DNA from: Terriglobus roseus
GTDB lineage: Bacteria > Acidobacteriota > Terriglobia > Terriglobales > Acidobacteriaceae
Direction of reading: 5' to 3'
NCBI RefSeq assembly: GCF_900102185.1
Contig: NZ_LT629690.1
Coordinates: 1,798,001 to 1,862,000 of the forward strand
Length of the DNA stretch: 64,000 bases
Shown: positions 43,093-60,863 of the stretch, piece after piece
How the letters are laid out: every line of letters begins with the position of its first letter
Position numbering within the stretch: the stretch's first letter is position 1
Position numbers and translations under genes: made by a program
The notes under the pieces: generated by a model
The model's input: the letters and a program-made list of their open reading frames with translations, nothing else
Databases searched by the model: none
Told to the model about the DNA's origin: nothing

Positions 43093-43104
43093 AAAAACGT
43101 TTTT
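43093..43104 (+). promoter_or_regulatory. Candidate LacI-type operator before GH105
   Basis: AAAAACGTTTTT is a perfect 12-bp palindrome with central CG, 47 bp before the GH105 start. A second partial copy AAAAACGTT lies at 43125-43133. Its core AAACGTTT is the same as in the operator before the GH28 gene. Confidence 0.5.
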
Positions 43105-43150
43105 CTCACCGCAAGGTATAAGTGAAAAACGTTGGTCCAGAAGAGGTTTC

Positions 43151-44398
43151 ATGCTGCTTCGAGTCTTCGGTATTCGCTCGGCTTTGGCTGTAGTTGTTCT
43201 ATCGGCGGTTGCGTCGGTACACGGGCAGGCTGTTGATCCTGTTGTGAAACGGGCCGCTGCTCAAGGCGCAGCGATGGCAAGAACGGTAGAGCAGGAGTGG
43301 CCAGCGGGCGTCATCACCACGCAAGCCAGGCCGGGCGCTTGGGCATATGAGGTGGGCACACTCCTGGACGGTATGACCGCGCAGTCGCTGGCAAGCGGCG
43401 ATGCGAATGCATTTGCTTATGTGCGAGCAACAGTCGATCGTTGGGTAGACAAAGATGGCAATGTAACGACGGAGCCGGGTAAGCCTTTTAATCCTGAGTT
43501 GCATACATTGGACAATCTCGAGCCCGGCCGCGCCGTACTAGCGGTGTACGAAAAGACTGGAGATCTACGCTATTCGAAAGCAGCAAAGCTCATCTTCAAT
43601 CAGTTCCAGACCATGCCACGCAATGCAGTAGGTGGTTACTGGCACAAGCAGATCTATCCCAACCAGATGTGGCTCGATGGCGCTTATATGGGCGAACCGT
43701 TTCGCGCGGGTTATGCGAAGACCTTTCACGTCACGGGAGAGTTTGACGATATCGCGAAGCAGCTTTTGCTGATGGATGAACACATGCGCGATCCAAAGAG
43801 CGGATTGTTGCGCCACGGCTGGGACGCCAGCAAAGAACAACAGTGGGCTGATAAGACCACAGGGCTTTCGCAGGAAGTGTGGGCACGTGCGCTGGGTTGG
43901 TACGCAATGGCATTGGTCGATACCATCCCGTCATTTCCTGCGAACCATCCGCAACGAGAAAAGCTGATTGCGGTGTTGCAGCACGTTGCTGATGGCGCCG
44001 CGAAGTATCAAGACGGAGAGAACGGCACCTGGTGGGACGTGATGGACAAGGGCGGTCAGGCCGGCAACTTCCGTGAGGCATCGGCGAGTGCGATGTTCAC
44101 CTATGCACTCGCAAAGGGAGTGCGCCTAGGCTATCTGCCGGAGAAGTATCGCGCGAATGCTGTGAAGGGCTGGCTCGGTATCGAGAAGGAGTTCATCACC
44201 ACGGATAGCAACGGTAAGGTCACATTGCACGGAACAGTAAAAGTCAGCGGTCTTGGCGGCAAGCCTTATCGGGCTGGTGATTACAACTACTATGTACACG
44301 AAGCTGTAGGCGATAACGACGCAAAGGGCGTAGGTGCCTACCTTCTTGCAACAAGTGAAATTCAACAGATCGGAAAGAAAACGGCCCGCACGAAGTAA
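43151..44398 (+). CDS. GH88/GH105 unsaturated rhamnogalacturonyl hydrolase
   Basis: A 415-residue exported protein (signal ending ASVHGQ) of the GH105 family. These enzymes hydrate the 4,5-unsaturated uronic acid left by polysaccharide lyases and so release it from the oligomer. The alpha/alpha-barrel motifs are visible: HTLDNLEPGRAVLAVYEKTGD, YWHKQIYPNQMWLDGAYMGEPFRAGYA with the catalytic Asp, GWDASKEQQWADKTTGLSQEVWARALGWYAMALVD and FREASASAMFTYALAKGVRLGYL. The start follows AGAGG at -4. It is the first gene of the pectin region, behind candidate LacI operators. The signal peptide suggests a periplasmic site; many homologues are cytoplasmic. Confidence 0.92.
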   Translation: MLLRVFGIRSALAVVVLSAVASVHGQAVDPVVKRAAAQGAAMARTVEQEWPAGVITTQARPGAWAYEVGTLLDGMTAQSLASGDANAFAYVRATVDRWVDKDGNVTTEPGKPFNPELHTLDNLEPGRAVLAVYEKTGDLRYSKAAKLIFNQFQTMPRNAVGGYWHKQIYPNQMWLDGAYMGEPFRAGYAKTFHVTGEFDDIAKQLLLMDEHMRDPKSGLLRHGWDASKEQQWADKTTGLSQEVWARALGWYAMALVDTIPSFPANHPQREKLIAVLQHVADGAAKYQDGENGTWWDVMDKGGQAGNFREASASAMFTYALAKGVRLGYLPEKYRANAVKGWLGIEKEFITTDSNGKVTLHGTVKVSGLGGKPYRAGDYNYYVHEAVGDNDAKGVGAYLLATSEIQQIGKKTARTK

Positions 44399-44414
44399 GT
44401 GCGGGGCCGTTTTC
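44380..44414. terminator. Bidirectional terminator between GH105 and kduI
   Basis: AACGGCCCGCAC pairs with GTGCGGGGCCGTT with one bulged G. AAAA flanks it on the left and TTTT on the right, so it can end both convergent genes; its left arm encodes the last residues of the GH105 protein. Confidence 0.8.
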
Positions 44415-44430
44415 GAATCGTTAGTTCTGC

Positions 44431-45261
44431 TTACTTGAGATCGGCAATACTGACGCCGTCCATGTCGTCGTATGCCTGATTCTCGCCGCCCATGCTCCAG
44501 CAGAAGCCGTAAGCGCTGGTGCCCGCGCCTGCATGAATGCTCCATCCCGGTGAGACAGCTACTTCGCGATTGGCAACAACAAGATGCCGAGTTTCCTGTG
44601 GTGGTCCCATCAGGTGCAACACGCGGTGCGCTGGATCAACGTCGAAGTACATGTACACCTCAGAACGACGCATGTGCGTATGCGGTGGCATGGTGTTCAG
44701 GTTTGATCCTGCATCGAGCAACGTGAAGCCCATCACAAGCTCGCAGGAACGAATGCCGTCGCGATATATGGCCTTGTAGATGGTTCGTTTGTTGCACGTC
44801 TCGACCGTGCCAAGCTGCAATCCTTGCAGGTCTTTAAAGGCGACTGACTTCGTGGGATAGTCCGCGTGTGCGGGATAACTGAGTAGATAAAACGCAGCAG
44901 GAGCATCTGATTTTTCGCTCTCAAAAGAAACATTCTTGCTGCCGCGACCAACGTAGAGACAGCTTAGTTTCTCCATGGAATAACGCTCGCCATCAACGGT
45001 GATGAAACCAGCACCGCCGACATTGAGTACGCCAAGTTCTCTGCGTTCACAGAAGAAATCGGCACGTAATTCCGGCTGTGTTTCCAGCTGAAGAGGAGTT
45101 GCCATTGGGACGGCAGAGCCAATCACAGTACGGTCCAGATCGACATAGACCAGATCGATTGCGCCTGCGGTGAAGAGGTTTTCAAGCAGGAAGGTCTCGC
45201 GCAATTCTGCAGTGGTCATGCGGGGAAAGCGCACCGGATCGGACATTTGAAGCAGCTTCAT
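44431..45261 (-). CDS. kduI: 5-Keto-4-deoxyuronate isomerase
   Basis: A 276-residue cupin-fold isomerase that converts 5-keto-4-deoxyuronate to 2,5-diketo-3-deoxygluconate (DKII), the step before KduD. The start MKLLQMSDPVRFPRMTTAELRETFLLENLF gives the usual family length. The zinc site is in MPPHTHMRRSEVYMYF, with a further histidine in WSIHAGAGT; the end MGGENQAYDDMDGV is family-typical. An extension to 45345 is unlikely. It is transcribed toward GH105 and divergent from the Tat-exported cupin gene. Confidence 0.96.
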   Translation of the reverse strand: MKLLQMSDPVRFPRMTTAELRETFLLENLFTAGAIDLVYVDLDRTVIGSAVPMATPLQLETQPELRADFFCERRELGVLNVGGAGFITVDGERYSMEKLSCLYVGRGSKNVSFESEKSDAPAAFYLLSYPAHADYPTKSVAFKDLQGLQLGTVETCNKRTIYKAIYRDGIRSCELVMGFTLLDAGSNLNTMPPHTHMRRSEVYMYFDVDPAHRVLHLMGPPQETRHLVVANREVAVSPGWSIHAGAGTSAYGFCWSMGGENQAYDDMDGVSIADLK

Positions 45262-45328
45262 GTGTGCAGTATAGCGAGCCGTAATGATGTAGCCGCAAGT
45301 GCAAACGCGCATGTATGCTTCACACACC

Positions 45329-45829
45329 ATGGCTATGACATCCACTCGCCGCAGCTTTCTTTCCTCTGCATCGCTTACCGCACTGGCGCTTCCATTGCTG
45401 GAGACGCAGGCACAAGCGGTCCCGCATCCAGAGCCTTTTCAAGTGTTCTCTGACCAAAAGCTTGAAGCTTCTAAAAAGAATCTGAACGCTGCTCCGGGCA
45501 ACGACAACCTGTTTAAGGGAGCAGCAGGTCTGACCATGGTGATGACCGTGGAAGAGAAGAAGGCGGCAAAGGAATTTGAATGGCATGAAGGCCGCGACCA
45601 CATCCTCCAGGTGTTGGAAGGCTCTACGGTCTACGAACTTGGCGGTACTCCAAAAGAGGGTCGCAATGTGAAGCCAGGAGAATGGCTCGCTCCATCGGCA
45701 GACGGTGCAAGCCGTGTGGAGTTGAAGAAAGGCGATGTTCTGGTCATCCCGCGAGGGACTCTGCACAAGCGCACCACGGCTGACAAAGTGACGTTTTACC
45801 TGATCTCATCTGAGGGAACTGCCCACTAA
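45329..45829 (+). CDS. Tat-exported cupin protein
   Basis: A 166-residue protein with a twin-arginine signal (MAMTSTRRSFLSSASLTALALPLLETQAQA). The mature part is a single cupin barrel: EFEWHEGRDHILQVLEGSTVYEL with two histidines as metal ligands and KKGDVLVIPRGTLHKRTT with a third. Cupins of the KdgF type linearise unsaturated galacturonate in the pectin route, and this gene stands between kduI and kduD. The metal-site spacing differs from KdgF and the export signal is unusual, so a KdgF-like role is only suggested by place. An ATG two codons later is an alternative start. Confidence 0.85.
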   Translation: MAMTSTRRSFLSSASLTALALPLLETQAQAVPHPEPFQVFSDQKLEASKKNLNAAPGNDNLFKGAAGLTMVMTVEEKKAAKEFEWHEGRDHILQVLEGSTVYELGGTPKEGRNVKPGEWLAPSADGASRVELKKGDVLVIPRGTLHKRTTADKVTFYLISSEGTAH

Positions 45830-45845
45830 TTTCGCCGCGCTTTAT

Positions 45846-45857
45846 CGAAACGTATTT
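45846..45857 (+). promoter_or_regulatory. Possible LacI half-operator before kduD
   Basis: CGAAACGTATTT has one perfect arm (CGAAAC) and a degraded second arm relative to CGAAACGTTTCG, 39 bp before the kduD start. It is listed because of its agreement with stronger sites in the same cluster. Confidence 0.35.
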
Positions 45858-45896
45858 GCAGAGCGTGGCTTTGGACGCATAGAGTGACATCCAGCT

Positions 45897-46667
45897 ATGT
45901 CTACCTCTGTTTCTTCGCTCGATCTGTTTCGTTTGGATGGAAAGGTGGCACTGGTGACAGGCGCCGCCAGCGGCCTTGGTGCGGCCATTGCCATGGGGCT
46001 CGCTCAGGCTGGCGCAACCGTTGCAGTACATGGAAACCGTCGTCCAGCCGACGAAACTGCATCCGGTATCGGCGATAACGCTGCGTCATTTCAGGCTGAT
46101 TTATCCGAAACGGACGGTGCGCGCACGCTCTTTGACCAGGTGAAGGCAAGGTTCGGTCATGTCGACATCCTGATCAACAACGCGGGGACGATTCATCGGA
46201 ACGAAGCGGAGAACGTGCTGCTGGAGGACTGGCAACGCGTGCTGCAGGTGAATCTGACGAGCGTTTTTCAGCTGTCGCAACTCGTGGGGCGTGACCTGAT
46301 CAACCGTAGTGCACGCGGCAAGATCGTGAACATTGCGTCGCTGCTTAGTTTTCAGGGTGGGATTCGCGTGCCTGCCTATGCAGCGTCGAAGGGCGGCGTG
46401 GCGCAACTGACAAAGGCGCTTGCGAACGAGTGGGCTGCCAAGCAGATTCAGGTGAATGCCGTTGCTCCGGGGTATTTCGCAACGACGAACACGGAAGCGT
46501 TGCAAGCTGACGAAACACGCAACCGGCAGATTCTGGAGCGTATTCCGGCAGGCCGTTGGGGGCAGCCTTCGGATCTGGTGGGTGCAACGCTCTTTTTATC
46601 GTCTGCGGCAAGCGACTATGTGACCGGAACCGTCCTGACCGTGGACGGGGGATGGATGGCACGATGA
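45897..46667 (+). CDS. kduD: 2-Dehydro-3-deoxygluconate dehydrogenase (KduD, SDR)
   Basis: A 256-residue classical short-chain dehydrogenase that reduces DKII to 2-keto-3-deoxygluconate. The NAD(P) motif is TGAASGLGAAIAMGLAQAG, followed by INNAGTIHRNEAENV, the catalytic Ser in NIASLLSFQGG and YAASKGG for YxxxK. The length, the IHR motif after NNAG and the terminal LTVDGGWMAR fit KduD-type 2-deoxy-D-gluconate dehydrogenases. The assignment rests also on proximity to kduI and pectin enzymes. It overlaps the VOC gene by 4 bp. Confidence 0.9.
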   Translation: MSTSVSSLDLFRLDGKVALVTGAASGLGAAIAMGLAQAGATVAVHGNRRPADETASGIGDNAASFQADLSETDGARTLFDQVKARFGHVDILINNAGTIHRNEAENVLLEDWQRVLQVNLTSVFQLSQLVGRDLINRSARGKIVNIASLLSFQGGIRVPAYAASKGGVAQLTKALANEWAAKQIQVNAVAPGYFATTNTEALQADETRNRQILERIPAGRWGQPSDLVGATLFLSSAASDYVTGTVLTVDGGWMAR

Positions 46668-47485
46668 AAAATAATCTTGCTCGTTTGGCGCTTTTGTCTG
46701 CACTCACGCTATCGGCATTACATGCCCAAGTGGAGTCACCGAGTGCCGCACAGAAGCCCGCGATTGTTGGCATTGCCCATGTGGCGATGCGTGTGGCCGA
46801 CTTGCGGGCATCTCGGGCGTTTTATGAAAAGCTCGGATTCGCGCAGCCGTTCGAAATCACGAAGGATGGCAAGGTGACGGAGGCATTCATCAAGCTGAAT
46901 GATCGCCAGTATCTTGAGCTATATCCAGCGGATACCGGGCAGACGGCGGCGTTTTTGCATGTTTGCTTCGAGGCGGTGAACCTGCCAGGTTTGTATCCCA
47001 TTTACACAGCGAATGGCATTGTTGCGCCGCCAGTGCGCAAGGCCGGAGCAGGGAACATGCTGCTGGCATGGAAGGGGCCTGAGGGGCAGACCGAAGAGAT
47101 CACCGAATACCTCCCGGGTTCCAAGCACAGCAACGATTTCGGCCAACATCTGGGCACTGACCGCATCGCAACGCATCTCGCGGCCGCTGTCGTTCCCATG
47201 AAAGATCCGGCGGTAACCGCTGAGTATTTCATCCAGAAGATGAACTTCGTGGACGGTGGAATACGGGAAGGCGCCCGCGTGACATCTCCTGCTGGTGAGA
47301 AGGACAGTTCATTCGCGTTTCTTCCAGAGGCTTCGCCGGAGAAGCTCGTGCTGGTTTTTACCGGTGTGAGAGAAAACGAAACGTTGCGAAAACTAAAAGA
47401 ACGTGGACTCACTGCCGTCGTGCAACAGCACCGAGTTCTCGTTCGCGATCCGGACGGAAATCTAATCGTGTTCACTTTGCGTTAG
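46664..47485 (+). CDS. Exported VOC-family (glyoxalase-like) protein
   Basis: A 273-residue protein with a signal peptide (MKNNLARLALLSALTLSALHAQ) and two vicinal-oxygen-chelate modules, about residues 36-155 and 165-270. The first begins VGIAHVAMRVADLRASRAFYEKLGF, with H as a probable metal ligand and YLELYP as another; the second begins HLAAAVVPMKDPAVTAEYFIQKMNF and ends VRDPDGNLIVFTLR. Its substrate is unknown. It is translationally coupled to kduD by ATGA overlap, which ties it to uronate metabolism, although one product is cytoplasmic and this one exported. Confidence 0.85.
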   Translation: MKNNLARLALLSALTLSALHAQVESPSAAQKPAIVGIAHVAMRVADLRASRAFYEKLGFAQPFEITKDGKVTEAFIKLNDRQYLELYPADTGQTAAFLHVCFEAVNLPGLYPIYTANGIVAPPVRKAGAGNMLLAWKGPEGQTEEITEYLPGSKHSNDFGQHLGTDRIATHLAAAVVPMKDPAVTAEYFIQKMNFVDGGIREGARVTSPAGEKDSSFAFLPEASPEKLVLVFTGVRENETLRKLKERGLTAVVQQHRVLVRDPDGNLIVFTLR

Positions 47486-47504
47486 ACGGCGGTACGTCAG
47501 AATA

Positions 47505-47516
47505 CGAAACGTTTCG
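47505..47516 (+). promoter_or_regulatory. LacI-type operator before GH28 gene
   Basis: CGAAACGTTTCG is a perfect 12-bp palindrome with central CG, 79 bp before the GH28 start and just after the VOC stop. This is the best example in the window of the motif found upstream of the pectin genes. Confidence 0.65.
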
Positions 47517-47594
47517 ATAATCATTGACGACAGTTAATGCGGCCTCCTATAGTTGCGGTGCATCGATCGAATCCGCATCCAGACTGGAATCCTT

Positions 47595-48977
47595 GTGAAA
47601 CGTTACGCAACCGCGGCGGTTTTGTTGTTTGGCTCGCCTCTTTTCCTCTCCGCGCAGGACACGCGGCATGTCACAGAGCCGACGATTCCTCCCGCCTGTA
47701 CGATTCTCAAAGCGCAGCTTAAGGCTACGAACAATGCGTTGCGCGACGAAGACGAGAAGAAACTCGACTCTGGCCGCATTCAAGATGCGATGGATCATTG
47801 CGGTGAAGGCAAGGCCGTGGTGCTCAGAGCGGACGGCGCGTCCAACGCGTTTCTCAGTGGGCCACTGGACCTGCGAAGCGGTGTGATACTGCTGATTGAA
47901 AAGGGCGTGACGCTGTACGCATCACGCGATCCGCGGCTCTTTGATTCGACGCCTGAGACTTGCGGCGTCACGGGGCCACAGGCAAAGAACTGCCTTGCAC
48001 TAATCAACGTCCGGGATGTGAAGAACGCCGCCGTAATGGGCGATGGCGTCATTGATGGGCGCGGCGACAAACAGATCCTCAGTAAGTCGTTTACGTGGTG
48101 GCAGCAGTCACGCGCCATGGAACCGACGAACACCAAATATTCAGCACCGAGACTGATCGTTGCGAATCATGCAGACGGATTGATCCTGTATCGCATTCGT
48201 CTACATAACTCGCCGAACTTCCATGTGACCGTGAGCAATACAAATGGCTTTACTGCGTGGGGTGTGCACCTGCTGACACCTACGGTGCGAGGCACGGATG
48301 CGCGCAACACTGATGGCATCGATCCAGGTTCCTCAGAGAACGTAACCGTCGCCAAAAGCTGGATTGATAACGGTGATGACAACATTGCAATTAAAGCCAG
48401 CGTGCACCACATGAGCGTGCTGGATAACCACTTCTATAGCGGTCATGGGATGTCCATGGGGTCCGAGGCACGCGATGAGTCGGACATTTACGTGGACACA
48501 TTGACGCTTGACCACACCACCAGCGGTATTCGCATTAAGAGCAACGTGCAGCGCGGTGGCATGGTGCGCGGTGTGGCCTATCGCAATGTGTGTATGCGTG
48601 ATGTGGCTATGCCCATTTCCATTTCGCCGTTCTACACCGGACAGACAACCGATGGCATTGAAGACACCGGTCTGAAGGGTGATATGACGCCGGATTACAA
48701 GGGGATTCGCATCGAAGATGTTTTGAGCGTTACTCCCGGCATTGTGCAGGTTGCGGGCTTGAACAAAGACCACGTCAGCGAAGTGACGCTGAATGGTGTG
48801 GAAGTACGCGGCATTCAACCTGCTCAAATGCGTGCGCGATTCGCTGCATTCACTTATGGGACGAAGGGTGCGAATATGAGCTTCTCTGGCGAGGGGGTAA
48901 CGAGCAATCCAGCGACGACGCCTGCAGTGAAATCGGTAATTTCTTGCGATGGCAAGTTTGTTCCTTATGAGGATTAA
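47595..48977 (+). CDS. GH28 polygalacturonase-type glycosidase
   Basis: A 460-residue exported pectinase. The GTG at 47595 gives a signal peptide (MKRYATAAVLLFGSPLFLSAQ); a TTG at 47553 would hide it behind an extension. The right-handed beta-helix core carries all GH28 motifs: NTDGIDPGSSENVTV, the catalytic aspartates in DNGDDNIAIKAS, GHGMSMGSEA and GIRIKS. Family members hydrolyse polygalacturonan, rhamnogalacturonan or their oligomers. It is the first of three genes (GH28, CE12, CE8) closely spaced on the strand, with a LacI operator upstream. Confidence 0.94.
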   Translation: MKRYATAAVLLFGSPLFLSAQDTRHVTEPTIPPACTILKAQLKATNNALRDEDEKKLDSGRIQDAMDHCGEGKAVVLRADGASNAFLSGPLDLRSGVILLIEKGVTLYASRDPRLFDSTPETCGVTGPQAKNCLALINVRDVKNAAVMGDGVIDGRGDKQILSKSFTWWQQSRAMEPTNTKYSAPRLIVANHADGLILYRIRLHNSPNFHVTVSNTNGFTAWGVHLLTPTVRGTDARNTDGIDPGSSENVTVAKSWIDNGDDNIAIKASVHHMSVLDNHFYSGHGMSMGSEARDESDIYVDTLTLDHTTSGIRIKSNVQRGGMVRGVAYRNVCMRDVAMPISISPFYTGQTTDGIEDTGLKGDMTPDYKGIRIEDVLSVTPGIVQVAGLNKDHVSEVTLNGVEVRGIQPAQMRARFAAFTYGTKGANMSFSGEGVTSNPATTPAVKSVISCDGKFVPYED

Positions 48978-48984
48978 CGCGATC

Positions 48985-50493
48985 ATGTCGTTGCATAAGC
49001 ATTCCCTCTCTGTAGCGCTTCTGGTTGCAGGCACGATGAGTGCATTCGGACAAGATGCGTATGTTGGCAACAATCCCGCGCAGCGTAAGCCTGGTACTTC
49101 TATACGTGTCGAGCTGATCGGCGACTCTACGCAAACCGACAATGCTGGATATGGTCGCGGCTTCTGCGCGAACCTGATGCCGCAGATCGACTGCCTGAAC
49201 ATGGCAAAAGGCGGTGCAAGCACCAAGACGTACCGTGAGCTTGGATTGTGGGATCGCGCTCTCGCTACCAAGCCGGATTACATGTTGATTCAGTTTGGCC
49301 ACAATGACATGGAATCGGCCGAGCACAATGATCGCCAGGTTCCTATCGACGTTTATGAGCAGAATCTGCGGAATTTTGTCACCGAAGCTCGAAGCCACAG
49401 CATCAAGCCGGTGTTAGTGACTCCTTTAACGCGCCGTTACTTTCAGGCGGATGGAAAGATTCATAGTGATCTGCTGAATCACGCCGCAGTGATGAAGCGT
49501 GTCGCTACAGATATGCATGTATCGTTGATCGATCTGCAGAGCGAAAGCATAGCGTATCTGGATAGCATCGGCGAGACCGCGGGTAGCAAGCTTGGTATTG
49601 CGAAGAAGGACGCGCAAGGAAAGACTGTTCCTGACAAGACACACTTGAACTGGCAGGGGAGCTACGTCTTTGGGCGGATGGTCGCAGTAGATCTTGGAGA
49701 TGTAGTTCCTGCGTTGAAGAAGTTTGTTCGGCCGCAAGCCGCAACTCTTCCTGCGGAAGGGCAGCTTGCCATGCGTGTCATCCAGCAGCAGCCATTCAAG
49801 ATAGTCCTCACAGGAGACTCCACTGTTGCCACAGAAGGTGGCTGGGGACCAGGCTTCTGCGCCACGCTGACTTCTAACGTCGCGTGCGTGGATGTAGCCA
49901 TGAACGGCCGCAGCACGAAGAGCTACATCGACGAAGGCTTGTGGCAAAAGGCATTGAACGAGAAAGGGAATTACTACTTCATCCAGTTTGGCCATAACGA
50001 TCAGAAGCCAGATCCCAAACGCCATGCGGATGCCGATGGGCTCTATGCGGAGAATCTGCGACGTTTCATTCACGATGTCCGTGCCATTGGTGCGATTCCC
50101 ATTCTGGTGACTCCTCTGTCTCGCCGCAACTACAAGGACGGGGTGTTAGTGAAGGATGGCCTGGAAGAGTACGCGGCCTCCGTTCGCAAAGTAGCAGCCG
50201 AAGAGAAGGTGACTGTTGTTGATTTGTTTAGTGTGTCGCAGAAGTATCTCAGCGGCATCTCGCAGGAACAGGCAGACACTTATGACATGGTTGGCCATCC
50301 GGACGAGAAGGCAGAAAATGCCAGCGCAGCTAAGCCGGACCGCACGCATTTGAACGACAAAGGCAAAGCTCTCTTTGGTCGCATGGTTGCCGACAACGTG
50401 ATCCGCATACAGGTGGAGCTGGGACCGAATGTGAACGGGCTTCCGGACGGTGCGATGGCCGTATTGCAGGCTTCTCCCACCGATGGGCACTAA
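48985..50493 (+). CDS. Double-domain CE12 rhamnogalacturonan acetylesterase
   Basis: A 502-residue exported protein (signal MSLHKHSLSVALLVAGTMSAFGQ) made of two SGNH-hydrolase domains in tandem, about 40-245 and 270-480. Each has a complete set of CE12 motifs: GDST with nucleophile Ser48 and Ser279, GGAST/NGRST, FGHND (104-108 and 335-339), VTPLTRR/VTPLSRR, and D-x-x-H (DKTH 217-220, DRTH 452-455). Such esterases remove acetyl groups from rhamnogalacturonan and open the chain for GH28 and lyases. Most relatives have one domain. The start overlaps nothing and lies 7 bp after the GH28 stop; an ATG at 48967 is possible. Confidence 0.92.
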   Translation: MSLHKHSLSVALLVAGTMSAFGQDAYVGNNPAQRKPGTSIRVELIGDSTQTDNAGYGRGFCANLMPQIDCLNMAKGGASTKTYRELGLWDRALATKPDYMLIQFGHNDMESAEHNDRQVPIDVYEQNLRNFVTEARSHSIKPVLVTPLTRRYFQADGKIHSDLLNHAAVMKRVATDMHVSLIDLQSESIAYLDSIGETAGSKLGIAKKDAQGKTVPDKTHLNWQGSYVFGRMVAVDLGDVVPALKKFVRPQAATLPAEGQLAMRVIQQQPFKIVLTGDSTVATEGGWGPGFCATLTSNVACVDVAMNGRSTKSYIDEGLWQKALNEKGNYYFIQFGHNDQKPDPKRHADADGLYAENLRRFIHDVRAIGAIPILVTPLSRRNYKDGVLVKDGLEEYAASVRKVAAEEKVTVVDLFSVSQKYLSGISQEQADTYDMVGHPDEKAENASAAKPDRTHLNDKGKALFGRMVADNVIRIQVELGPNVNGLPDGAMAVLQASPTDGH

Positions 50494-50527
50494 GACTTAC
50501 TGACTGATCTTCGAAAAAGGATTTGCC

Positions 50528-51583: not shown

Positions 51584-51674
51584 TCAAAACCGCCACCTTC
51601 TAACGCTCCAGTCCCTGACCTTCAGGGTGCTTCGTCGCGTATGGCGAGAAGCTAGCGCAGTTGTTGAGAGAAAT

Positions 51675-51699
51675 CGAAACGGTTCGGTGAAACGTCTCA
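51675..51699 (+). promoter_or_regulatory. Paired LacI-type operators upstream of TonB receptor promoter
   Basis: CGAAACGGTTCG (51675-51686) and TGAAACGTCTCA (51688-51699) are two imperfect palindromes one base apart. Each has one or two mismatches from the CGAAACGTTTCG and TGAAACGTTTCA forms. Confidence 0.55.
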
Positions 51700-51785
51700 A
51701 ACGCGCAAATGCCCAAAAAAACGGCGAAATATAAGGGCCATATTGTGTTGTTTTCCTCTGATTTTCACGGCCTCGTAAAAAGGGT

Positions 51786-51815
51786 TTGACGAAAGTATTT
51801 CTTACCGACTAGTAT
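51786..51815 (+). promoter_or_regulatory. Sigma-70-like promoter of TonB receptor
   Basis: TTGACG, an 18-base spacer and TAGTAT, about 104 bp before the start codon. The fit to -35 and -10 boxes is good, and its position between operators supports it. Confidence 0.5.
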
Positions 51816-51887
51816 TCGCCCGTTCTCGCTAAAAACCGAGATGCACCGTACAGGTATGGCAAAGGGAGCCTTCCCGGCGGTAGAAAT

Positions 51888-51899
51888 CGAAACCTTTCG
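51888..51899 (+). promoter_or_regulatory. LacI-type operator in TonB receptor leader
   Basis: CGAAACCTTTCG has perfect five-base arms (CGAAA/TTTCG) with CC at the centre instead of CG. It is 20 bp before the start codon, downstream of the predicted promoter, where a repressor would block elongation. Confidence 0.55.
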
Positions 51900-51918
51900 A
51901 AACTCTTGAGGAGTGACC

Positions 51919-54900: not shown

Positions 54901-55671
54901 ACCTTCATGACGAACTATCAGTGGGCGAAGTCGATCGACAACAATGGAACGTTCCGTTCCGGTTACGACATTCCGGCAGCGTATGCGTCTGATGGACACT
55001 TCCATGCGGCGCGTTCACTGGACAAGAGCCTGTCGCTCGGTGATCAGCGCCACAAGTTCGTTGTAACCGGCGCTTACAATCTGCCTTTCGGCACCGGCGT
55101 TTTAGGTGGCGGCAATGCGTTCACACGAACTGCGTTCGGTGGCTTTAAGCTGTCTGGCATCTTTACGGCGTTCTCTGGCGCACCCCTGTCCATCACGATG
55201 AACTCGTGCAACACGAACCCGTCGCAGAACGTTTGCTACCCGTTCCTGAACCCGAACTATTCGGGTAACGGACAGATTCAGGGCAGCACACGTCCAAAGA
55301 CCTCGGCCGATCTGGGAACCACGCAGTACTTGGATTCCAACGCCTTCCTAAGCACCGCGAACACGCCAAACTACATGTTCAGCACCACGGCGCGTTCGGC
55401 TGCTCTGCCGGGATTGTTCCAGCCGGGCAACTACAACCTGGACATGAGCCTTCGCCGGTCGATTGACATCCCCACCGGTGGGCTGCATGAAGGTACCAAG
55501 CTGGTACTTGAGGCGGACTACTTCAACGTGACGAACCATACTCGGTTTGTCTACAGCCAGTCGAATGCCGTTATCAGCACGTTTGGAACCTCCAGCTATG
55601 GCACCAAGGTTCGCGACACAACCGTTCCGTATATCCGCGCGTTGCAGCTTGCTGCTCGTATCGAGTTCTAA
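51919..55671 (+). CDS. TonB-dependent receptor (Oar-like, carboxypeptidase-regulatory domain)
   Basis: A 1250-residue outer-membrane receptor. GAGGAG lies five bases before the ATG; the GTG two codons upstream is less likely. A signal region (ending about ATMTLSAGAQ) is followed by a carboxypeptidase-regulatory-like beta-sandwich (about residues 47-130, INGRVVDNTGAAVPDATVTIKD), then a plug (DFAALLPGVN ... GSVNGSGSRGAVSAIYINGVPI) and a long barrel ending in an aromatic C-terminus (RALQLAARIEF). Such large receptors import oligosaccharides with TonB energy. No SusD-type partner is adjacent. Position after CE8 and shared operator motifs suggest pectin oligomers as the cargo. The gene ends at a strong terminator. 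Confidence 0.92.
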   Translation: MTFRNPLSRMTLGAGLLHPMRIAAPLALVATMTLSAGAQLAGKGAINGRVVDNTGAAVPDATVTIKDNATNKQQSLKSSGSGEYSFSLDPGKYTITVSHDGFKSVTQENVNVNALQTFSVDLTLPTGETTESVTVVDTPPTLETSNAALGVTIEQEQYSALPLIQDGGGQRRATDFAALLPGVNSQTTNGNQTTNAGSVNGSGSRGAVSAIYINGVPITSVAGEGDPRFVWTSMAVDAIEQFQVQTVGYSAIYEGQGVQNYVVKRGTNNIHGAAYDYFRDTGLDTWGFQQTINPVTGRAQKPTEHQHEYGLFAGLPIIKDKLFVFGGYEGYRFSRQVPYQLETIPTLRMRQGDFGEFVSNPASCGTAATTQAVAGCIYDPDSTKLVTINVNGKATQAYQRTPFANNIIPMSRLSPVAQRMQSYLPAPTNGNVNNNYLVNYKTGLNNWTTTNRFDWTINQKQAASVVLAWGRQATTAPAAVTVSSTSNGLPAPYISSQQFSPKTKVFLFEHTYAITPHITNQLKYGYGRYDGPGYNQDIGGNYGAAANGIQGLPAGQAQDSFPTVTFSGNTNINRWAGYSSNRPVANGYVLLDNLQWVKGSHTFTFGFQIAWMQYNFLNNATGVNPLQLTFTNALTAGYSNNTTALSTSGQGYASYMLGAANSGGFTLSSVPETGGRFRPQSPYFQDNWKVTSKLTLDYGLRWDYFPTYREVKNRFAYFDPNATNPLTGSKGALAFGGYGNGLCNCSSPVHDYMKNFGPRVGFAYQADPKTVFRGSFSVIYTHGNANGGSATSRQGSGLQGYSVSPSTTVVQPTASQTGTQYWKIDNPYPAYTLPPTLDPGLGTSYTTATTASSQTPTYADPYYGGRAPQFLNWNFGLQREISPSTTLTISYVGSQGHFLQPDSLNGRGIASNQLDPKYLGLGTQLSNTATAANLAAAGVTVPYASFGGSQNPSIAQALKPYAQYGSISDAYGFVGNTRFHALQLYMTKRLTHGLTFMTNYQWAKSIDNNGTFRSGYDIPAAYASDGHFHAARSLDKSLSLGDQRHKFVVTGAYNLPFGTGVLGGGNAFTRTAFGGFKLSGIFTAFSGAPLSITMNSCNTNPSQNVCYPFLNPNYSGNGQIQGSTRPKTSADLGTTQYLDSNAFLSTANTPNYMFSTTARSAALPGLFQPGNYNLDMSLRRSIDIPTGGLHEGTKLVLEADYFNVTNHTRFVYSQSNAVISTFGTSSYGTKVRDTTVPYIRALQLAARIEF

Positions 55672-55685
55672 CTCTTAACCTCACA

Positions 55686-55730
55686 AAGACAAGACCACCG
55701 ATTAATATGATCGGTGGTCTTGTCTTCTTC
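55686..55730 (+). terminator. Strong terminator of TonB receptor
   Basis: A 17-bp perfect stem (55686-55702 with 55710-55726; arms AAGACAAGACCACCGAT and ATCGGTGGTCTTGTCTT), 7-base loop and T-rich tail, 14 bp after the stop. Its right arm ends 10 bp before the start codon of the next gene. Confidence 0.9.
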
Positions 55731-55736
55731 CTTCTT

Positions 55737-57116
55737 ATGCGAATCTCATCTTGTCTCTCCGTTGCCGTATTGATTGCCGTTTCCACCTCCACAAACCTGC
55801 AAGCGCAGGTGGCAGCAGGTGGTGGTGGCGTGCCGCGCCCTGACCAGTTCTTTTCTGTGCAGGCGCCGTTCAACAGCGGAATCTTTGTTAAACCGGGCAA
55901 AGAACTTTCTGCCGCACAGATCAAGAAGCGCGATGAAGCGTGGCGTGCTGAGATACGCAAACAGCTTTTCGTGCCAGATCCTCTACCTGCTTTGCAGGCG
56001 AAGGTGTGGTCGACGTTCTCACCCACGCCCGGCGTTTTGGCGGACCGTGTCACATACTCCACGGCCAACGGCATGCGTGTGCCGGCCATCGTCTATCGGC
56101 CTGATCCCCGGACCACGCACTGGAAGGGCAAGCTGCCCGGCGTCGTCGTTGTGAATGGACACGGCAATGACAAGTTCGGCTGGTATGCCTTTTACAGCGG
56201 CATCCTGTTTGCCAAGGCTGGAGCCGTTGCCGTCACGTACGACCAGATTGGCGAAGGCGAACGCAATGCGCACAAAGCCAGCCGCCAGTCTCCGGCAGAG
56301 CATGATAAGGTCGTCGATTTGCCGCATTGGGGGCAGCGTCTCGCAGGATTAATGCAGGTGGATGCGATGCAGGGAGTCAGCTACCTGCGTTCGCTTCCAC
56401 AAGTAGACCCGCAGCGTATCGGCATGGTGGGATACTCGCTGGGGTCCTTGATCGCGGGTATTACAGGCGCCATTGATCTTCGCATTCATGCGATTGTGCT
56501 GAGTGGAGGCGGGGTCTATGACGGACCTCACGAGTATTACGACAGCAATAAGCTGCCATGCCAAACGCCGCCATATCTGTCGTTGGGTGTTCTTGGGGAT
56601 CGCGGAGCCATCCTGTATGCGCTCAACGCCGCTCGTGGACCGTTGTACGTGATGAACGGCGAGAGCGACACTGTGATGAAGATGGCGGATCATCCGCAGC
56701 CGTGGTTCGATGCTGTGCGTGCGCGAGCAATTGCGCTGAACGGCAATGATCGGAACATGTTTACAAACATCATGTACCCCGGCATTAGTCATCGGACAAG
56801 CTGGGTGAATCTGGACGGAATGCTCTGGCTGAACCAGCAACTTCACTTCGCGCTTTGGGATGAAGCAGCGATCCGGGCCGCAGGGACAACCCATATCTCC
56901 AAATGGATCAGCGCCAATAACGTCGATATTTCGCCCACGTACTTCCGCGAAGACCGCGAAGGTGGCCTGGACGCCGTGGGACAGGGTTTCCCCGCGATTC
57001 CTCGTAAAGATTTAATGGTGCTTCCTGATGCCGAGTGGGAGCAGCAGAAGAATACGCTGATTTACGATGCCTGGGCTGCTAAGGCCCGCGCGCTGGAGGA
57101 AGGAAAGGCTCAGTGA
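55737..57116 (+). CDS. Exported alpha/beta-hydrolase (esterase/peptidase-like)
   Basis: A 459-residue protein with a signal peptide (MRISSCLSVAVLIAVSTSTNLQAQ). The alpha/beta-hydrolase core starts near residue 105 with KLPGVVVVNGHGNDKFGW; the nucleophile is Ser in GMVGYSLGSLIAG, and NGESDTVMK probably supplies the acid and MYPGISHRTSW the histidine. The YDQIGEGERNAHKA stretch is common in dienelactone-hydrolase/acetyl-xylan-esterase-like proteins. A role in removing acetyl, feruloyl or methyl esters from pectin fits the context but is inference. An ATG at 55707 lies inside the preceding hairpin and is not used. Confidence 0.85.
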   Translation: MRISSCLSVAVLIAVSTSTNLQAQVAAGGGGVPRPDQFFSVQAPFNSGIFVKPGKELSAAQIKKRDEAWRAEIRKQLFVPDPLPALQAKVWSTFSPTPGVLADRVTYSTANGMRVPAIVYRPDPRTTHWKGKLPGVVVVNGHGNDKFGWYAFYSGILFAKAGAVAVTYDQIGEGERNAHKASRQSPAEHDKVVDLPHWGQRLAGLMQVDAMQGVSYLRSLPQVDPQRIGMVGYSLGSLIAGITGAIDLRIHAIVLSGGGVYDGPHEYYDSNKLPCQTPPYLSLGVLGDRGAILYALNAARGPLYVMNGESDTVMKMADHPQPWFDAVRARAIALNGNDRNMFTNIMYPGISHRTSWVNLDGMLWLNQQLHFALWDEAAIRAAGTTHISKWISANNVDISPTYFREDREGGLDAVGQGFPAIPRKDLMVLPDAEWEQQKNTLIYDAWAAKARALEEGKAQ

Positions 57117-57246
57117 TGCCGATGCGCGTAAGCGTTACTTTTATGCGAGTCCGCAGCCCCTTTCAGGGCTGAAGAATGTATAAGTTTTACAACGCAATTG
57201 TTGGTTTCAACGTGTCACCTGCTTTGCCTTCTCAGGAGATCTAAAC

Positions 57247-58317
57247 TTGTCCGTTACTCGAAAACCGGATGCACGTAAGAAGAACCGCTCCGGCCGAATC
57301 AAAATTCAGGACGTCGCCCGGCTGGCGCAGGTATCGCTCAGCACCGTTTCTGGCGTGCTGAACGAAAAGGACAATATCCGTCCGGAGACACGGCAGCGCG
57401 TGCTGGACGTGATTGCACAGCTTGGCTATACGCCGAACATGTTTGCCAGCAATCTGGCGCGTCGTCGGACCAAACTGATCGGCATTATCGTTTCGGATCT
57501 ATTGAATCCGTTCTTTGCAGAGATTGCGCGTGCGCTCGACATCGAAGCTCGGAAGCATGGCTACGAGACATTTCTGGCCTCTACGAACTTCAACATGGAG
57601 CAACAGGGAGAAGCCGTTCGCCAGATGCTATCCCTTCGTGTGGCTGGCATTGCCATGATGACCTCTGAAAACGACCCGGAGGCATTCTTTCAGCTCAAAG
57701 CCAGCGGCACGCCTGCGGTCTATCTGGACAACAATCACTCTGCACCAACCATCGGTACGGTACGCGTGGACAAGCGCCACGGAATGTACGTGGCTGTAAA
57801 GCATCTGCTGGAGCTTGGACACAGGCGCATTCTGCTGATCAAGAATTCGCAGCGTGATTCCAACGCTCCGCCGATGTTCTCGCATATGGAGCGACAAATC
57901 GGCTTTGAAGAAGCCCTGCACCAGTACAACGCCGCTGATATGGATGTTCACATCATCGATGAACCAGGCGAGCCAGCGGCAGCCGGGCTGAGTGCCGTTG
58001 AACGGGCGTTGAAGCATTATCGTTTTACTGCTGTGGTGGCCATCAACGACCTTGTGGCGTTGGGTGCATTCCGGGCACTGCAAGCTGCCGGTCGAACGAT
58101 TCCCAATGATGTTTCAGTTGTGGGATTCGATGACACGTATCTGTGCCGCTTCCTGCATCCTCCATTAACGACGGTGGCAACCCCTCGCAACGAACTGGCG
58201 CACAGCGTTTTGGATATGCTGTTCCGCTACGTCGATGGCGAAGAGCACGTGAACGAACCGACGCTGTCGGCGAACATCGTCTTGCGTGAATCGACGGCTC
58301 CCCCCGCCAAAGAATAG
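57247..58317 (+). CDS. LacI-family transcriptional regulator of pectin locus
   Basis: A 356-residue regulator with a TTG start after AGGAG at eight bases. The DNA-binding domain (about 18-75) is IKIQDVARLAQVSLSTVSGVLNEKDNIRPETRQRVL with the hinge ASNLARRRTKLIG; the effector domain has AVVAINDLVALGAFRALQAAGRTIPNDVSVVGFDD and the terminal ANIVLRES. It lies between the esterase and GH95 genes inside the pectin region and is the most likely protein for the GAAACGTTTC palindromes upstream. The effector may be KDG or a galacturonate oligomer; that is inference. Confidence 0.93.
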   Translation: MSVTRKPDARKKNRSGRIKIQDVARLAQVSLSTVSGVLNEKDNIRPETRQRVLDVIAQLGYTPNMFASNLARRRTKLIGIIVSDLLNPFFAEIARALDIEARKHGYETFLASTNFNMEQQGEAVRQMLSLRVAGIAMMTSENDPEAFFQLKASGTPAVYLDNNHSAPTIGTVRVDKRHGMYVAVKHLLELGHRRILLIKNSQRDSNAPPMFSHMERQIGFEEALHQYNAADMDVHIIDEPGEPAAAGLSAVERALKHYRFTAVVAINDLVALGAFRALQAAGRTIPNDVSVVGFDDTYLCRFLHPPLTTVATPRNELAHSVLDMLFRYVDGEEHVNEPTLSANIVLRESTAPPAKE

Positions 58318-58338
58318 ACCGCACCACAGAGGAACGTT

Positions 58339-60828
58339 ATGCGCCGCATCCTTGTCCTTTCATGTGTATTCATGGGGGGCGTTTGCCTTCCAGCGCAAAC
58401 TCACACTCCCGCCTCGAGCGAGAGCGTGCTTTGGTACCGACAGCCTGCTCCAATATGGGACCATGCTTTGCCCATCGGCAACGGACGACTTGGTGCCATG
58501 GTCTTCGGAGGTGCAAACACCGGCGCGAACAATGGCGATCTGCAGGACGCTAAGGAAAACGCTGCGTTGATGGATGGTAGCCAGACCTCGGCTGCTGACG
58601 AACATCTGCAACTGAACGAAACCAGCGTGTGGCAGGGAAGTCGTGCAGATCGATTGAATCCCAAAGGGCGAGAATCGTTTCTTGAGGCACGCAAGCTACT
58701 GCTGGAATCGAAAGGCACTGACGGCGAAAAGATAGCCGCAGCGGAGAAGATCGCTCAGGAAGGCATGCTTGGCGTGCCCATCAAAATGCCTGGCTACAGC
58801 ACACTAGGCGATCTCTATCTGCGCGCAACCAACGCCCAGCCAGTCAGCGACTATCGCCGCGAACTTGATCTGCAGACAGGCGTAGTCCGTGTCACCTACA
58901 CGATGAATGGTGTGCACTACGCACGCGAAGTGTTCGCGTCGATTCCTCAGCAACTCATCGTTATGCGGATTTCGGCAGATAAGAAAGGCGCGATCAGTTT
59001 CCACGCCAGCATGGATAGGCCTGATGACTTTGCGACCCGCACGCAAGGCAATGACACGCTGGTGTTGCGGGAAGGCGCAAAACACGAAGGGCAGATTCAC
59101 TTTGCTGGTGAGACAAAGTTCATTGCCTTTGGAGGCACTGTGAACGCGGACGGCAAAGAGATTGTCGTAGCGGGTGCAGACACTGTCACGGTGCTGATTG
59201 CTGCAGCGACGGACTTTAAGGGCGGCCCGTTTGCAGGTGGCGATCCGGAGCAGCAATGCCAGCAAGTATTCCGTAGAGCAGCCGACCTGACATTCCTTGC
59301 CATGTTTGGGGCTCAGCAAGCGGTGTATCAACCCGTTTACCGGCGTATGTCGCTTCAGTTGGGTTCGAGTGATGCCGCAATCGCATCGATACCTACGGAT
59401 GAGCGAGTGAAGCGCGTTAGTGCTGGGGCCGACGATCTTGGATTGCAGCAGCTTTACTTTCAGTTCGGTCGTTATCTGTTGATCAGTTCCTCGCGCCCGG
59501 ACGGCCTGCCTGCAAACCTGCAAGGACTTTGGGCGGCAGGCGTTAACAATCCGTGGGGATCGAAGTACACCATCAACGTGAACACGGAGATGAATTACTG
59601 GCTTGCCGAACCTGCCGGACTCTCAGACACGACCGTACCGTTGATCAACCTCATCGACATGGTGCGTACGCCATCGAGTGGAAGCGGAACCCAGGTTGCG
59701 CAGAAGTACTACAGCGCGCGTGGCTTTGTGGTTCATCACAATACTGATCTATGGGGCGATGCAGAACCCATCGATGGGTATCAATACGGCATCTGGCCGA
59801 TGGGCGGCGCGTGGCTGGCGTTGCATGCTTGGGAGCACTACGCCTTCACGTTGGACAACGCATTTCTGAAGCAGCGTGCATGGCCCATCTTGCATGATGC
59901 GTCGCAGTTCTATCTGGACTACCTGACTAACGATGGCTCAGGACACCTGGTTACAGGGCCATCGTTATCGCCAGAGAACAAGTACAAACTGCCGGATGGT
60001 AAGTCGCATTCGTTGACCATGGGGCCAACCATGGACATGGAAATTGTTCGTGAACTCTTCACACGCACGTTAGATAGCGGACGTGTGCTGCATGAAGACC
60101 CTGCATTCCTGAAGCAGGTTGAAGATGCTCGAGCGAAACTACTGCCATTCCAGGTGGGCAAGTTGGGCCAGTTGCAGGAGTGGCCGTTGGACTACACAGA
60201 AGATGCTCCGGGGCATCGCCACATTTCGCATCTGTGGGCTTTGTTTCCGGGCACGCAGATTTCGTTAGCGCACACACCGGAACTTGCGAAAGCAGCGCGC
60301 GTCACGCTGGAACGTCGGCTTGCGAATGGCGGTGGGCAGACAGGATGGTCGCGCGCCTGGGTAGTCAATTACTGGGACCACCTGCACGAAGGTGAGAAGG
60401 CATACGAGAGCCTGCAGGTGCTGTTCCGGCAATCGACCTTCCCCAATCTGATGGACACGCATCCGCCAGGAGTCTTCCAGATTGACGGCAATCTTGGGGC
60501 AGCTAATGGAATGCTTGAAGCAATTCTGCAATCGCGCTGGATAGAGGATGGCGCAGAGTTGGAGTTGCTTCCTGCATTGCCGCGACAGTGGAGCTCCGGT
60601 TCAGTCAGCGGTCTGCGTGTACGGGGCGGTGCAAGCGTAGACATGCGTTGGGTCAACGGCAAGATCATCGCTTTGCGAATCCATGCAGACGGAGATACGA
60701 AGCTGCAACTGTTATTACCGACAGGAAGTACTGTTGCGGAAGTTATAAGTCAGGGTAGAAAAGTTGCTCTAACAGCAGGTGCACTGTCAGTGAAGAGAAA
60801 TCAATCGTACGAAGTGAAAATTCAATAA
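58339..60828 (+). CDS. GH95 alpha-L-fucosidase-type glycosidase
   Basis: An 829-residue exported enzyme (signal MRRILVLSCVFMGGVCLPAQ). The N-terminal beta-rich domain starts LWYRQPAPIWDHALPIGNGRLGAMVFGG with LQLNETSVWQGS, as in GH95; the catalytic alpha/alpha-barrel has YTINVNTEMNYWLAEPAGL with two key Asn, GPSLSPENKYKL with the general-acid Glu, and QIDGNLGAANGM with the base-activating Asp. GH95 members cleave alpha-1,2-linked L-fucose or L-galactose, which occur on xyloglucan and rhamnogalacturonan side chains. It lies 21 bp after the LacI regulator and probably shares its transcript. Confidence 0.93.
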   Translation: MRRILVLSCVFMGGVCLPAQTHTPASSESVLWYRQPAPIWDHALPIGNGRLGAMVFGGANTGANNGDLQDAKENAALMDGSQTSAADEHLQLNETSVWQGSRADRLNPKGRESFLEARKLLLESKGTDGEKIAAAEKIAQEGMLGVPIKMPGYSTLGDLYLRATNAQPVSDYRRELDLQTGVVRVTYTMNGVHYAREVFASIPQQLIVMRISADKKGAISFHASMDRPDDFATRTQGNDTLVLREGAKHEGQIHFAGETKFIAFGGTVNADGKEIVVAGADTVTVLIAAATDFKGGPFAGGDPEQQCQQVFRRAADLTFLAMFGAQQAVYQPVYRRMSLQLGSSDAAIASIPTDERVKRVSAGADDLGLQQLYFQFGRYLLISSSRPDGLPANLQGLWAAGVNNPWGSKYTINVNTEMNYWLAEPAGLSDTTVPLINLIDMVRTPSSGSGTQVAQKYYSARGFVVHHNTDLWGDAEPIDGYQYGIWPMGGAWLALHAWEHYAFTLDNAFLKQRAWPILHDASQFYLDYLTNDGSGHLVTGPSLSPENKYKLPDGKSHSLTMGPTMDMEIVRELFTRTLDSGRVLHEDPAFLKQVEDARAKLLPFQVGKLGQLQEWPLDYTEDAPGHRHISHLWALFPGTQISLAHTPELAKAARVTLERRLANGGGQTGWSRAWVVNYWDHLHEGEKAYESLQVLFRQSTFPNLMDTHPPGVFQIDGNLGAANGMLEAILQSRWIEDGAELELLPALPRQWSSGSVSGLRVRGGASVDMRWVNGKIIALRIHADGDTKLQLLLPTGSTVAEVISQGRKVALTAGALSVKRNQSYEVKIQ

Positions 60829-60836
60829 ACATAGAC

Positions 60837-60863
60837 GAAGCCCCGCAAGGGGCTTCACTCTTT
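60837..60863 (+). terminator. Terminator of GH95 gene
   Basis: GAAGCCCC / GGGGCTTC, 8-bp stem with GCAA loop, then ACTCTTT. The T-run is short. It closes the pectin region. Confidence 0.75.

Follow-up and report, generated by a model that had tools for sequence, protein, structure and literature searches.

Gene content of the locus

The 64-kb stretch of Terriglobus roseus DNA analyzed here (the window) carries, at 43093-60863, a set of 12 genes that is best read as a pectin utilization locus (Table 1). All 12 genes of the original prediction, from GH105 to GH95, were found in place by Pfam or NCBIfam profile matches, bearing out its gene list. Signal peptides and a Tat-like RR motif were judged by eye rather than with a prediction tool. 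Among solved structures, the best relatives of GH105 are of the YteR group (4wu0, E 7.1e-85) and that of GH28 is the polygalacturonase 1bhe (E 7.4e-79). The CE12 protein consists of tandem halves with 38% identity over 209 residues and matches the PaeY model NF041897 at E 8.7e-18 (64 bits, cut-off 1000). KduD scores slightly below the TIGR01832 cut-off of 338.85 bits. The start of the VOC gene overlaps the kduD stop codon; its product reached no NCBIfam model at E 0.001 and only weak PDB matches (3huh, E 0.00041). The TonB-dependent receptor additionally matches a Plug domain and has no SusD partner. The true start of the alpha/beta-hydrolase may be the ATG at 55737. An inverted repeat 3' of GH95 probably marks the end of the locus.

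Table 1. Genes and sequence elements of the T. roseus pectin locus (positions within the window)
Feature	Position	Strand	Evidence or remark
Palindrome AAAAACGTTTTT, candidate LacI operator variant, upstream of GH105	43093..43104	.	Identical in G031 and G066
GH105 unsaturated uronyl hydrolase, YteR group, predicted exported (signal by eye)	43151..44398	+	PF07470, E 8.5e-91
kduI, 5-dehydro-4-deoxyuronate isomerase, no signal seen	44431..45261	-	NF002091, 377.5 bits (cut-off 250)
Cupin, predicted exported, Tat-like N-terminus (STRRSFL)	45329..45829	+	Metal motif E-x-H-x4-H plus later His
Operator-like site CGAAACGTATTT before kduD	45846..45857	+	3 mismatches; identical in G031 and G066
kduD, 2-keto-3-deoxygluconate 5-dehydrogenase	45897..46667	+	TIGR01832, 337.5 bits
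VOC-family protein, predicted exported	46664..47485	+	PF00903, E 1e-8
Operator-like site CGAAACGTTGCG, within 3' part of VOC gene	47377..47388	+	Palindrome scan
Perfect palindrome CGAAACGTTTCG, candidate LacI operator, upstream of GH28	47505..47516	.	Identical in G031 and G066
GH28 polygalacturonase, predicted exported (signal by eye)	47595..48977	+	PF00295, E 7e-49
CE12/GDSL acetylesterase, two-domain, predicted exported (signal by eye)	48949..50493	+	PF13472, two stretches
CE8 pectin methylesterase, predicted exported (signal by eye)	50528..51583	+	PF01095, E 3.1e-56
Operator-like site CGAAACGGTTCG, upstream of receptor	51675..51686	.	CGAAACG kept, right half variable in G031 and G066
Operator-like site CGAAACCTTTCG, immediately 5' of receptor start codon	51888..51899	.	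Palindrome scan
TonB-dependent receptor, CarboxypepD_reg and OMP_b-brl_4 barrel	51919..55671	+	PF25183, E 2.8e-165; PF13620, E 6.2e-21
Alpha/beta-hydrolase, esterase-like, predicted exported	55707..57116	+	PF05448 (AXE1), 27.4 bits (cut-off 21); weak assignment
LacI-family regulator	57247..58317	+	PF00356, PF13377, above Pfam cut-offs
GH95, alpha-L-fucosidase/galactosidase family, predicted exported (signal by eye)	58339..60828	+	PF22124, E 1.5e-158, above Pfam cut-off
Inverted repeat GAAGCCCCGCAAGGGGCTTC 3' of GH95	60837..60856	.	Read in sequence

Candidate operators, conservation and steps encoded elsewhere

The palindromes said to be shared across the locus held up to counting. With at most one mismatch, the LacI-like palindrome CGAAACGTTTCG occurs five times in the 64 kb against 0.25 expected, a count reached in 0 of 100 shuffles, and all five sites fall in 43693-51899, inside the locus. 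The site at 47505 lies between genes ahead of GH28, and those at 51675 and 51888 lie between genes ahead of the receptor. The remaining two are intragenic, at 43693 in GH105 and 47377 in VOC, which weighs against the preferred reading of the locus given below. The sites at 43093, 45846 and 47505 are identical in both near relatives, G031 and G066, which also keep AAACCTTTCG of site CGAAACCTTTCG, though not its first two bases. Elsewhere in the genome, related sites precede uxaC (C1:4424518, two mismatches) and the receptor gene adjoining it (C1:4425934, one mismatch). Also on the opposing side, at up to two mismatches the palindrome is not enriched genome-wide (249 sites versus 327 for a reversed control); only the totals of this count are used, its site list leaving out 47505, 51675 and 51888. 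Sites at 1.23 and 1.43 Mb have, by eye, no pectin genes nearby. Predicted LacI control of the locus is well supported by gene content and the candidate operator sites. The regulator is 97-98% identical in G031 and G066.

G031 and G066 keep the same gene order throughout, from one flanking gene across the 12 locus genes to the other, at 85-98% identity; these two relatives are very close, so this conservation is modest evidence. The comparison of gene order around kduI and kduD suggested in the original prediction found the complete arrangement in 2 of 20 related kduI regions, both belonging to these near relatives, and the full arrangement is thus rejected as a family standard. In G008, a member of another genus, a TonB receptor lies beside GH28, CE8, GH105 and kduI. 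SusD (PF07980) was detected in a Bacteroides control genome and in none of 60 sampled family genomes, that of T. roseus included. Lack of SusD is therefore ordinary, the norm of the family and not a speciality of this locus. The perceived strangeness of the arrangement is mostly explained by this norm and by the similar genes of G008. Of the two exported proteins regarded as helpers, an exported cupin is a repeated neighbor of kduI in the family, whereas the VOC gene was seen, among the kduI regions of 20 relatives (regions rather than whole genomes being compared), only in G031 and G066. Among the matches listed from open-licence PMC literature (titles and abstract starts), none describes such a locus or reports kduI with an exported cupin as its neighbor.

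The locus had been credited with the whole route from de-esterification to 2-keto-3-deoxygluconate (KDG). Gene content supports pectin use and outer-membrane import well, but the locus alone does not cover the route to KDG, since no inner-membrane transporter is found among its 12 genes and galacturonate released by GH28 would need uxaC, at 4.42 Mb. MFS genes lie at 1.51 and 4.42 Mb. The former is part of a kdgK-eda-MFS cluster, adjoined by araBAD (by eye), in which the best NCBIfam matches of the MFS protein and the kinase fall below cut-offs. The genome search therefore disposed of the idea that the organism lacks KDG kinase and aldolase. As for their absence from the window, the eda-adjacent kdgK does lie outside it, but a PfkB-family kinase is encoded inside at 32971-33723.

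Absence of a pectate lyase extends beyond the window. The genome, a single contig that is 99.98% complete, has no match to the Pfam models of PL1, PL10, PL11 and PL22, the families covered by the search. Among these families the genome thus offers no source of substrate for GH105 and KduI, a point against the preferred reading of the locus given below. GH105, KduI, KduD and the cupin might use oligomers liberated by the lyases of neighboring microbes, the organism's own products being of the hydrolase type only. We rate this possibility at a little under even odds. It accords with retention of GH105, KduI and KduD in all three near genomes despite the missing lyases, and has a precedent on alginate, where excerpted text describes Bacteroides eggerthii as growing only with an added lyase that supplied oligomers (PMC11381880). 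Against it, PL10 occurs in 5 of 12 kduI-bearing genomes of the genus, and the T. roseus genome may hold a lyase of PL2, PL3, PL4, PL9 or another family outside the search.

The exported cupin beside kduI

The cupin gene is divergent from kduI and co-directional with kduD. Its product matches general cupin models only (PF00190 at 22.7, cut-off 22; PF07883 below cut-off). The RR pair is invariant in all 23 rows of one alignment (A1), as are the E, H and motif-2 His of E-x-H-x4-(H/D)...H in a second (A2). A cupin of one of two divergent subfamilies sits at kduI in 16 of 20 kduI genomes, the window type being 24-27% identical to the Sec-type L120. Elsewhere, nine representatives of the window type show no common theme in their neighbors (UbiD, TPR, alpha/beta-hydrolase, PfkB, decarboxylase). 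In all 12 kduI-bearing genomes of the genus, the best-scoring copy lies no more than about 1.2 kb from kduI, a result biased in favor of kduI-linked copies from which the profile was partly built.

In the excerpted description of BeKdgF, the metal ligands are His50, His52, Glu56/Gln and His90, and the catalytic Asp102 lies 12 residues past the motif-2 His90 (PMC11381880). By spacing rather than structure, no acidic residue is found at +10 to +14 in any of the 17 A2 rows. Among solved structures, the A2 profile scores best with cupins other than KdgF, quercetin dioxygenases (1y3t, E 4.6e-6) among them, and KdgF (5fq0) comes well behind at E 1.9; the window cupin alone retrieved three PDB matches up to E 10, KdgF not among them. 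Identification of the cupin as KdgF was rejected for want of both a sequence relation to solved KdgF and the catalytic Asp.

We propose that the exported cupin may instead open unsaturated galacturonate outside the cytoplasm. Spontaneous opening of an alginate-derived uronate is suppressed at pH 3, according to excerpted text (PMC11381880). An acid periplasm would slow the hydroxide-driven opening of unsaturated galacturonate, and soil acidobacteria with an exported GH105 would then need a catalyst there. That kduI-linked exported cupins make up a new class of enzymes that open uronate rings outside the cytoplasm is a further step that we consider rather unlikely. Lacking the catalytic aspartate, such cupins would be analogues of KdgF without belonging to it, and the YhcH (DUF386) anomerases would be the nearer comparison.

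A competing account, to which we assign almost an even chance, is that the cupin plays no part in handling unsaturated uronate and is a copy of a general exported family placed at kduI by chance. Two more copies are encoded in the T. roseus genome, neither of them near kduI. The window subfamily has 23 loci in named genomes, and KduI was found in the fetched DNA, which includes several short contigs, only at L040 and L041. The missing aspartate and the dioxygenase-like best matches point the same way, as does a survey whose excerpted text has kdu-type strains mostly without KdgF and ring opening considered spontaneous (PMC12838403). Chance placement is countered by the proximity to kduI in 12 of 12 genus genomes, subject to the profile bias noted above, and by the two subfamilies that fill the same place in different genomes.

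Relation to known systems and a proposed model of pectin use

Pectin PULs of Bacteroides carry CE8, CE12, GH28 and GH105 beside an outer-membrane receptor and are under hybrid two-component control. The same four families adjoin the receptor in T. roseus, but there is no SusC/SusD pair and the regulator is of the LacI family rather than a hybrid two-component system. Other parallels are the SusD-free CUT loci of Xanthomonas campestris, one of which, putatively for pectin, includes a pectin methylesterase and a pectate lyase, as excerpted from Blanvillain et al. 2007 (PMC1790865). As in those loci, a TonB receptor is combined with degradative enzymes and a sugar regulator. Unlike them, the T. 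roseus locus has neither inner-membrane transporter nor pectate lyase among its 12 genes, includes kduI, kduD and the exported cupin, and encodes a PF25183 barrel. With the receptor, GH28, CE8, CE12, GH105, GH95 and LacI present and the inner-membrane transporter absent, it is at most a partial CUT locus by the excerpted wording of that paper.

Union of kduI and kduD resembles the kdu/dhu clusters with kdgF, where the survey, as excerpted, finds the cupin gene for KdgF flanked by kduD and dhuI in 12 of 41 type H strains (PMC12838403; its text contains no occurrence of "acidobacteri"). The T. roseus cupin differs from that KdgF in its signal sequence and missing catalytic Asp, and from the characterized BeKdgF, which has no signal peptide. 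Among relatives, ten eda-kdgK-kduI plus cupin-kduD clusters also unite kduI, kduD and an exported cupin, and that of Granulicella paludicola (L040) has the same divergent kduI/cupin-kduD core and cupin subfamily. The window clade differs in having no kdgK-eda on site and an extracellular pectinase and receptor block instead. The locus is mostly ordinary, its odd part being the exported cupin.

Our preferred reading, with a probability of about 0.8, is a locus under LacI control, with a TonB receptor and no SusD, that serves homogalacturonan together with neighboring polymers bearing acetyl or fucosyl groups. The gene families, operator enrichment and conservation, and genome positions are observed, and we infer the substrate, induction, order of steps, protein locations and cupin reaction. 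CE8 would take off methyl groups and CE12 acetyl groups, GH28 would cut the backbone, and oligomers would cross the outer membrane via the TonB receptor. GH95 would trim side chains and exported GH105 would remove unsaturated ends; the lyases that supply its substrate may belong to other microbes or to a family outside our search. The exported cupin would act, still outside the cytoplasm, on the freed unsaturated galacturonate. MFS carriers encoded elsewhere would bring monomers through the inner membrane, to be converted to KDG by KduI and KduD and then processed by the KDG kinase and KDPG aldolase from 1.51 Mb, with saturated galacturonate handled via uxaC at 4.42 Mb. A target other than homogalacturonan, namely rhamnogalacturonan I or II, with GH28 possibly a rhamnogalacturonan hydrolase, would suit the YteR-type GH105, CE12 and GH95 as enzymes of branched pectin and a GH28 match to NF049899, a rhamnogalacturonidase model (E 1.3e-20; 73.5 bits, cut-off 650), but is improbable given that GH28 is much closer to polygalacturonase 1bhe, that CE8 acts on methyl-esterified homogalacturonan, and that PF18370 (PL11) is absent from 19 of 19 genus genomes.

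Pectin hydrolysis is recorded for Terriglobus saanensis in excerpted text (PMC3570800). The locus read here as serving homogalacturonan is a concrete acidobacterial example, and it comes with candidate operators. In the acidobacterial family sampled, TonB receptors normally go without SusD, and the T. roseus genome retains a route for unsaturated uronate while matching none of the four lyase families in the search. Finally, the small cupin family found at kduI in 16 of 20 kduI genomes has a role that is directly assayable.

Gene content and completion of the pathway

The source genome (G000), a single contig (C1) of 4.85 Mb that is 99.98% complete and contains the window at C1:1798001-1862000, carries between sua5 and phosphoketolase genes all 12 members of the pectin block that the original prediction had listed. 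Several assignments are weak: the alpha/beta-hydrolase matched AXE1 at 27.4 bits against a cut-off of 21, the VOC protein and cupin were matched by general fold models only, and KduD fell 1.35 bits below its equivalog cut-off. Signal peptides of the locus proteins were called by eye. The two GDSL domains of the CE12 protein share 38% identity, indicating internal duplication. Separating the receptor and alpha/beta-hydrolase genes is a terminator- or attenuator-like inverted repeat, perfect over 17 bases, which overlaps the earliest candidate start codon of the hydrolase gene. The window also holds a second sugar cluster.

Positions of features in the window and elsewhere in the source genome
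Feature	Position	Strand	Content
Pectin block	window 43.1-60.9 kb		GH105, kduI (opposite strand), cupin, kduD, VOC, GH28, two-domain CE12, CE8, TonB-dependent receptor, alpha/beta-hydrolase, LacI, GH95
CE12 gene	window 48949-50493		two GDSL domains
Inverted repeat	window 55686-55726		17 bases
Second sugar cluster	window 32869-37173		PfkB kinase, LacI-like regulator (partly by eye), neighbours
Kinase/aldolase pair	C1:1509-1511 kb		PfkB kinase, KDPG aldolase
Fetched locus L085	519-12378		araBAD, TonB receptor, FadR-type regulator, KDG kinase, KDPG aldolase, MFS carrier
uxaC	4.42 Mb		PF02614, above cut-off
Operator-like site upstream of uxaC	C1:4424518 (L133 16518)		2 mismatches
Operator-like site before TonB receptor gene (PF25183) beside uxaC	C1:4425934 (L133 17934)		1 mismatch
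BNR-like/cupin fusion	L162 (G000:C1:4461378 region), 1477-3033	-	518 residues, signal-like start

The genome search proposed with the original prediction located an adjoining kinase/aldolase pair and, in this genome, none of the four pectin-lyase Pfam families covered. The aldolase exceeded the TIGR01182 cut-off; the best NCBIfam matches of the kinase were KDG-kinase and aldolase/kinase-fusion models, all below cut-off. Around the pair lie a FadR-type regulator, an MFS carrier nearest TIGR00893 (below cut-off) and, both read by eye, a TonB receptor and araBAD; arabinose and uronate use are thus joined in L085. Near uxaC are an SDR, a second MFS carrier nearest TIGR00893 (below cut-off) and a GntR-type regulator. 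PF00544 and PF14583 were absent from the source genome (0/1 each), as was PF09492, which was present in 6 of 19 genus genomes, five of them with kduI; PF18370 was found in 0/19.

Comparison of kduI regions

Orthologues of kduI occur in 12/19 genus genomes. The family sample gave matches in 23/60, strong (E < 1e-100) in 10, including our genome and the near relative G031; the other 13 showed 23-30% identity. We counted 20 kduI genomes, the 12 of the genus plus 8 from elsewhere in the family, and compared 20 regions, from 18 relatives (with near relatives G031 and G066, without G073) and fetched loci L040 (Granulicella paludicola) and L041. The complete locus was confined to G031 and G066. The kduI/cupin-kduD core extends to L040, where eda-kdgK-kduI faces cupin-kduD in the same divergent arrangement. 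Both eda and kdgK lie within about 5 kb of kduI in L040, L041 and 10 of 16 other genome regions (G060, 61, 62, 65, 67, 68, 69, 76, 34, 17), and not in our genome, G031 or G066; therefore the window clade would most simply have retained the core, with kdgK-eda relocated or lost and the extracellular block joined to it. G008, of another genus, groups kduI, GH28, CE8, GH105 and a TonB receptor without a cupin match.

The original prediction called the SusD-free arrangement unfamiliar. SusD is indeed missing, but this is expected, because PF07980 was found in 0/60 sampled family genomes (Bacteroides control positive) and Xanthomonas CUT loci, one a putative pectin locus, lack SusD in the part of PMC1790865 consulted.

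Candidate operator sites

The predicted shared palindromes were borne out by five sites resembling CGAAACGTTTCG (≤1 mismatch) in 64 kb, against 0.25 expected, all within the locus and two in coding sequence; 0/100 shuffled sequences reached five. Genome-wide, at ≤2 mismatches, the pattern was not enriched (249 versus 327 for the reversed control). Three sites are unchanged in G031 and G066: the exact CGAAACGTTTCG match ahead of GH28, AAAAACGTTTTT ahead of GH105 and CGAAACGTATTT ahead of kduD. The two at the receptor promoter are partly kept; this conservation alone is modest evidence, since the proteins of these relatives are 85-98% identical to ours. Related sites at the galacturonate (uxaC) locus suggest that the regulon of the window's LacI would span both places.

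Distribution and proposed role of the exported cupin

Two cupin subfamilies occur at kduI, together in 16/20 kduI genomes. The window type, with a Tat-like RR invariant in 23/23 aligned rows, is found there in our genome, G031 and G066; the Sec type, its Sec-like signals read by eye and the start of the G067 copy not cleanly read, in G060, 61, 62, 65, 67, 68, 69, 73, 76, 17, 39, 40 and 20. No copy was found at kduI in G034 or G008, nor in G052 and G014, whose contigs are short (6.3 and 6.8 kb). Within the genus, the best-scoring copy lay no more than about 1.2 kb from kduI in 12/12 kduI genomes, by a profile built with, and so biased toward, kduI-linked copies; genomes lacking kduI had weaker copies only (5/7) or none at E 1e-6 (2/7). 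Against a tight link, KduI was present in the fetched DNA of only 2/23 window-subfamily loci in named genomes, and our genome has two further cupin copies, one of them in a fusion with a BNR-like domain (PF13088, below Pfam cut-off). This fusion hints that the family acts on carbohydrates. Among the 23 named loci that encode a related cupin, 22 are acidobacterial by title and one is a Rhodanobacteraceae bin.

KdgF is the known cupin of the unsaturated-galacturonate ring-opening step. The two subfamilies have in common E-x-H-x4-(H/D), the His of motif 2 and a GG pair. Searched against solved structures, the cupin profile best matched quercetin dioxygenases (1y3t, E 4.6e-6) and did not recover KdgF (5fq0, E 1.9), and 17/17 aligned cupins have no acid at the KdgF catalytic Asp position. 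One Sec-type copy weakly matched DUF386 (E 5.9e-5, below cut-off), recalling YhcH, described in the part of PMC8141875 consulted as a sugar-acid anomerase. From position, signal and chemistry, we propose that the exported cupin would open the ring of unsaturated galacturonate in the periplasm. A strict need for such an enzyme is disfavoured, because, according to the portion of a survey consulted, strains with kdu-type clusters mostly lack KdgF and open the ring non-enzymatically (PMC12838403). Collectively, the gene block is real, makes sense and is for the most part ordinary: a partial-CUT-type pectin locus, apparently acidobacterial, in which one protein family, the exported cupin, merits an assay.
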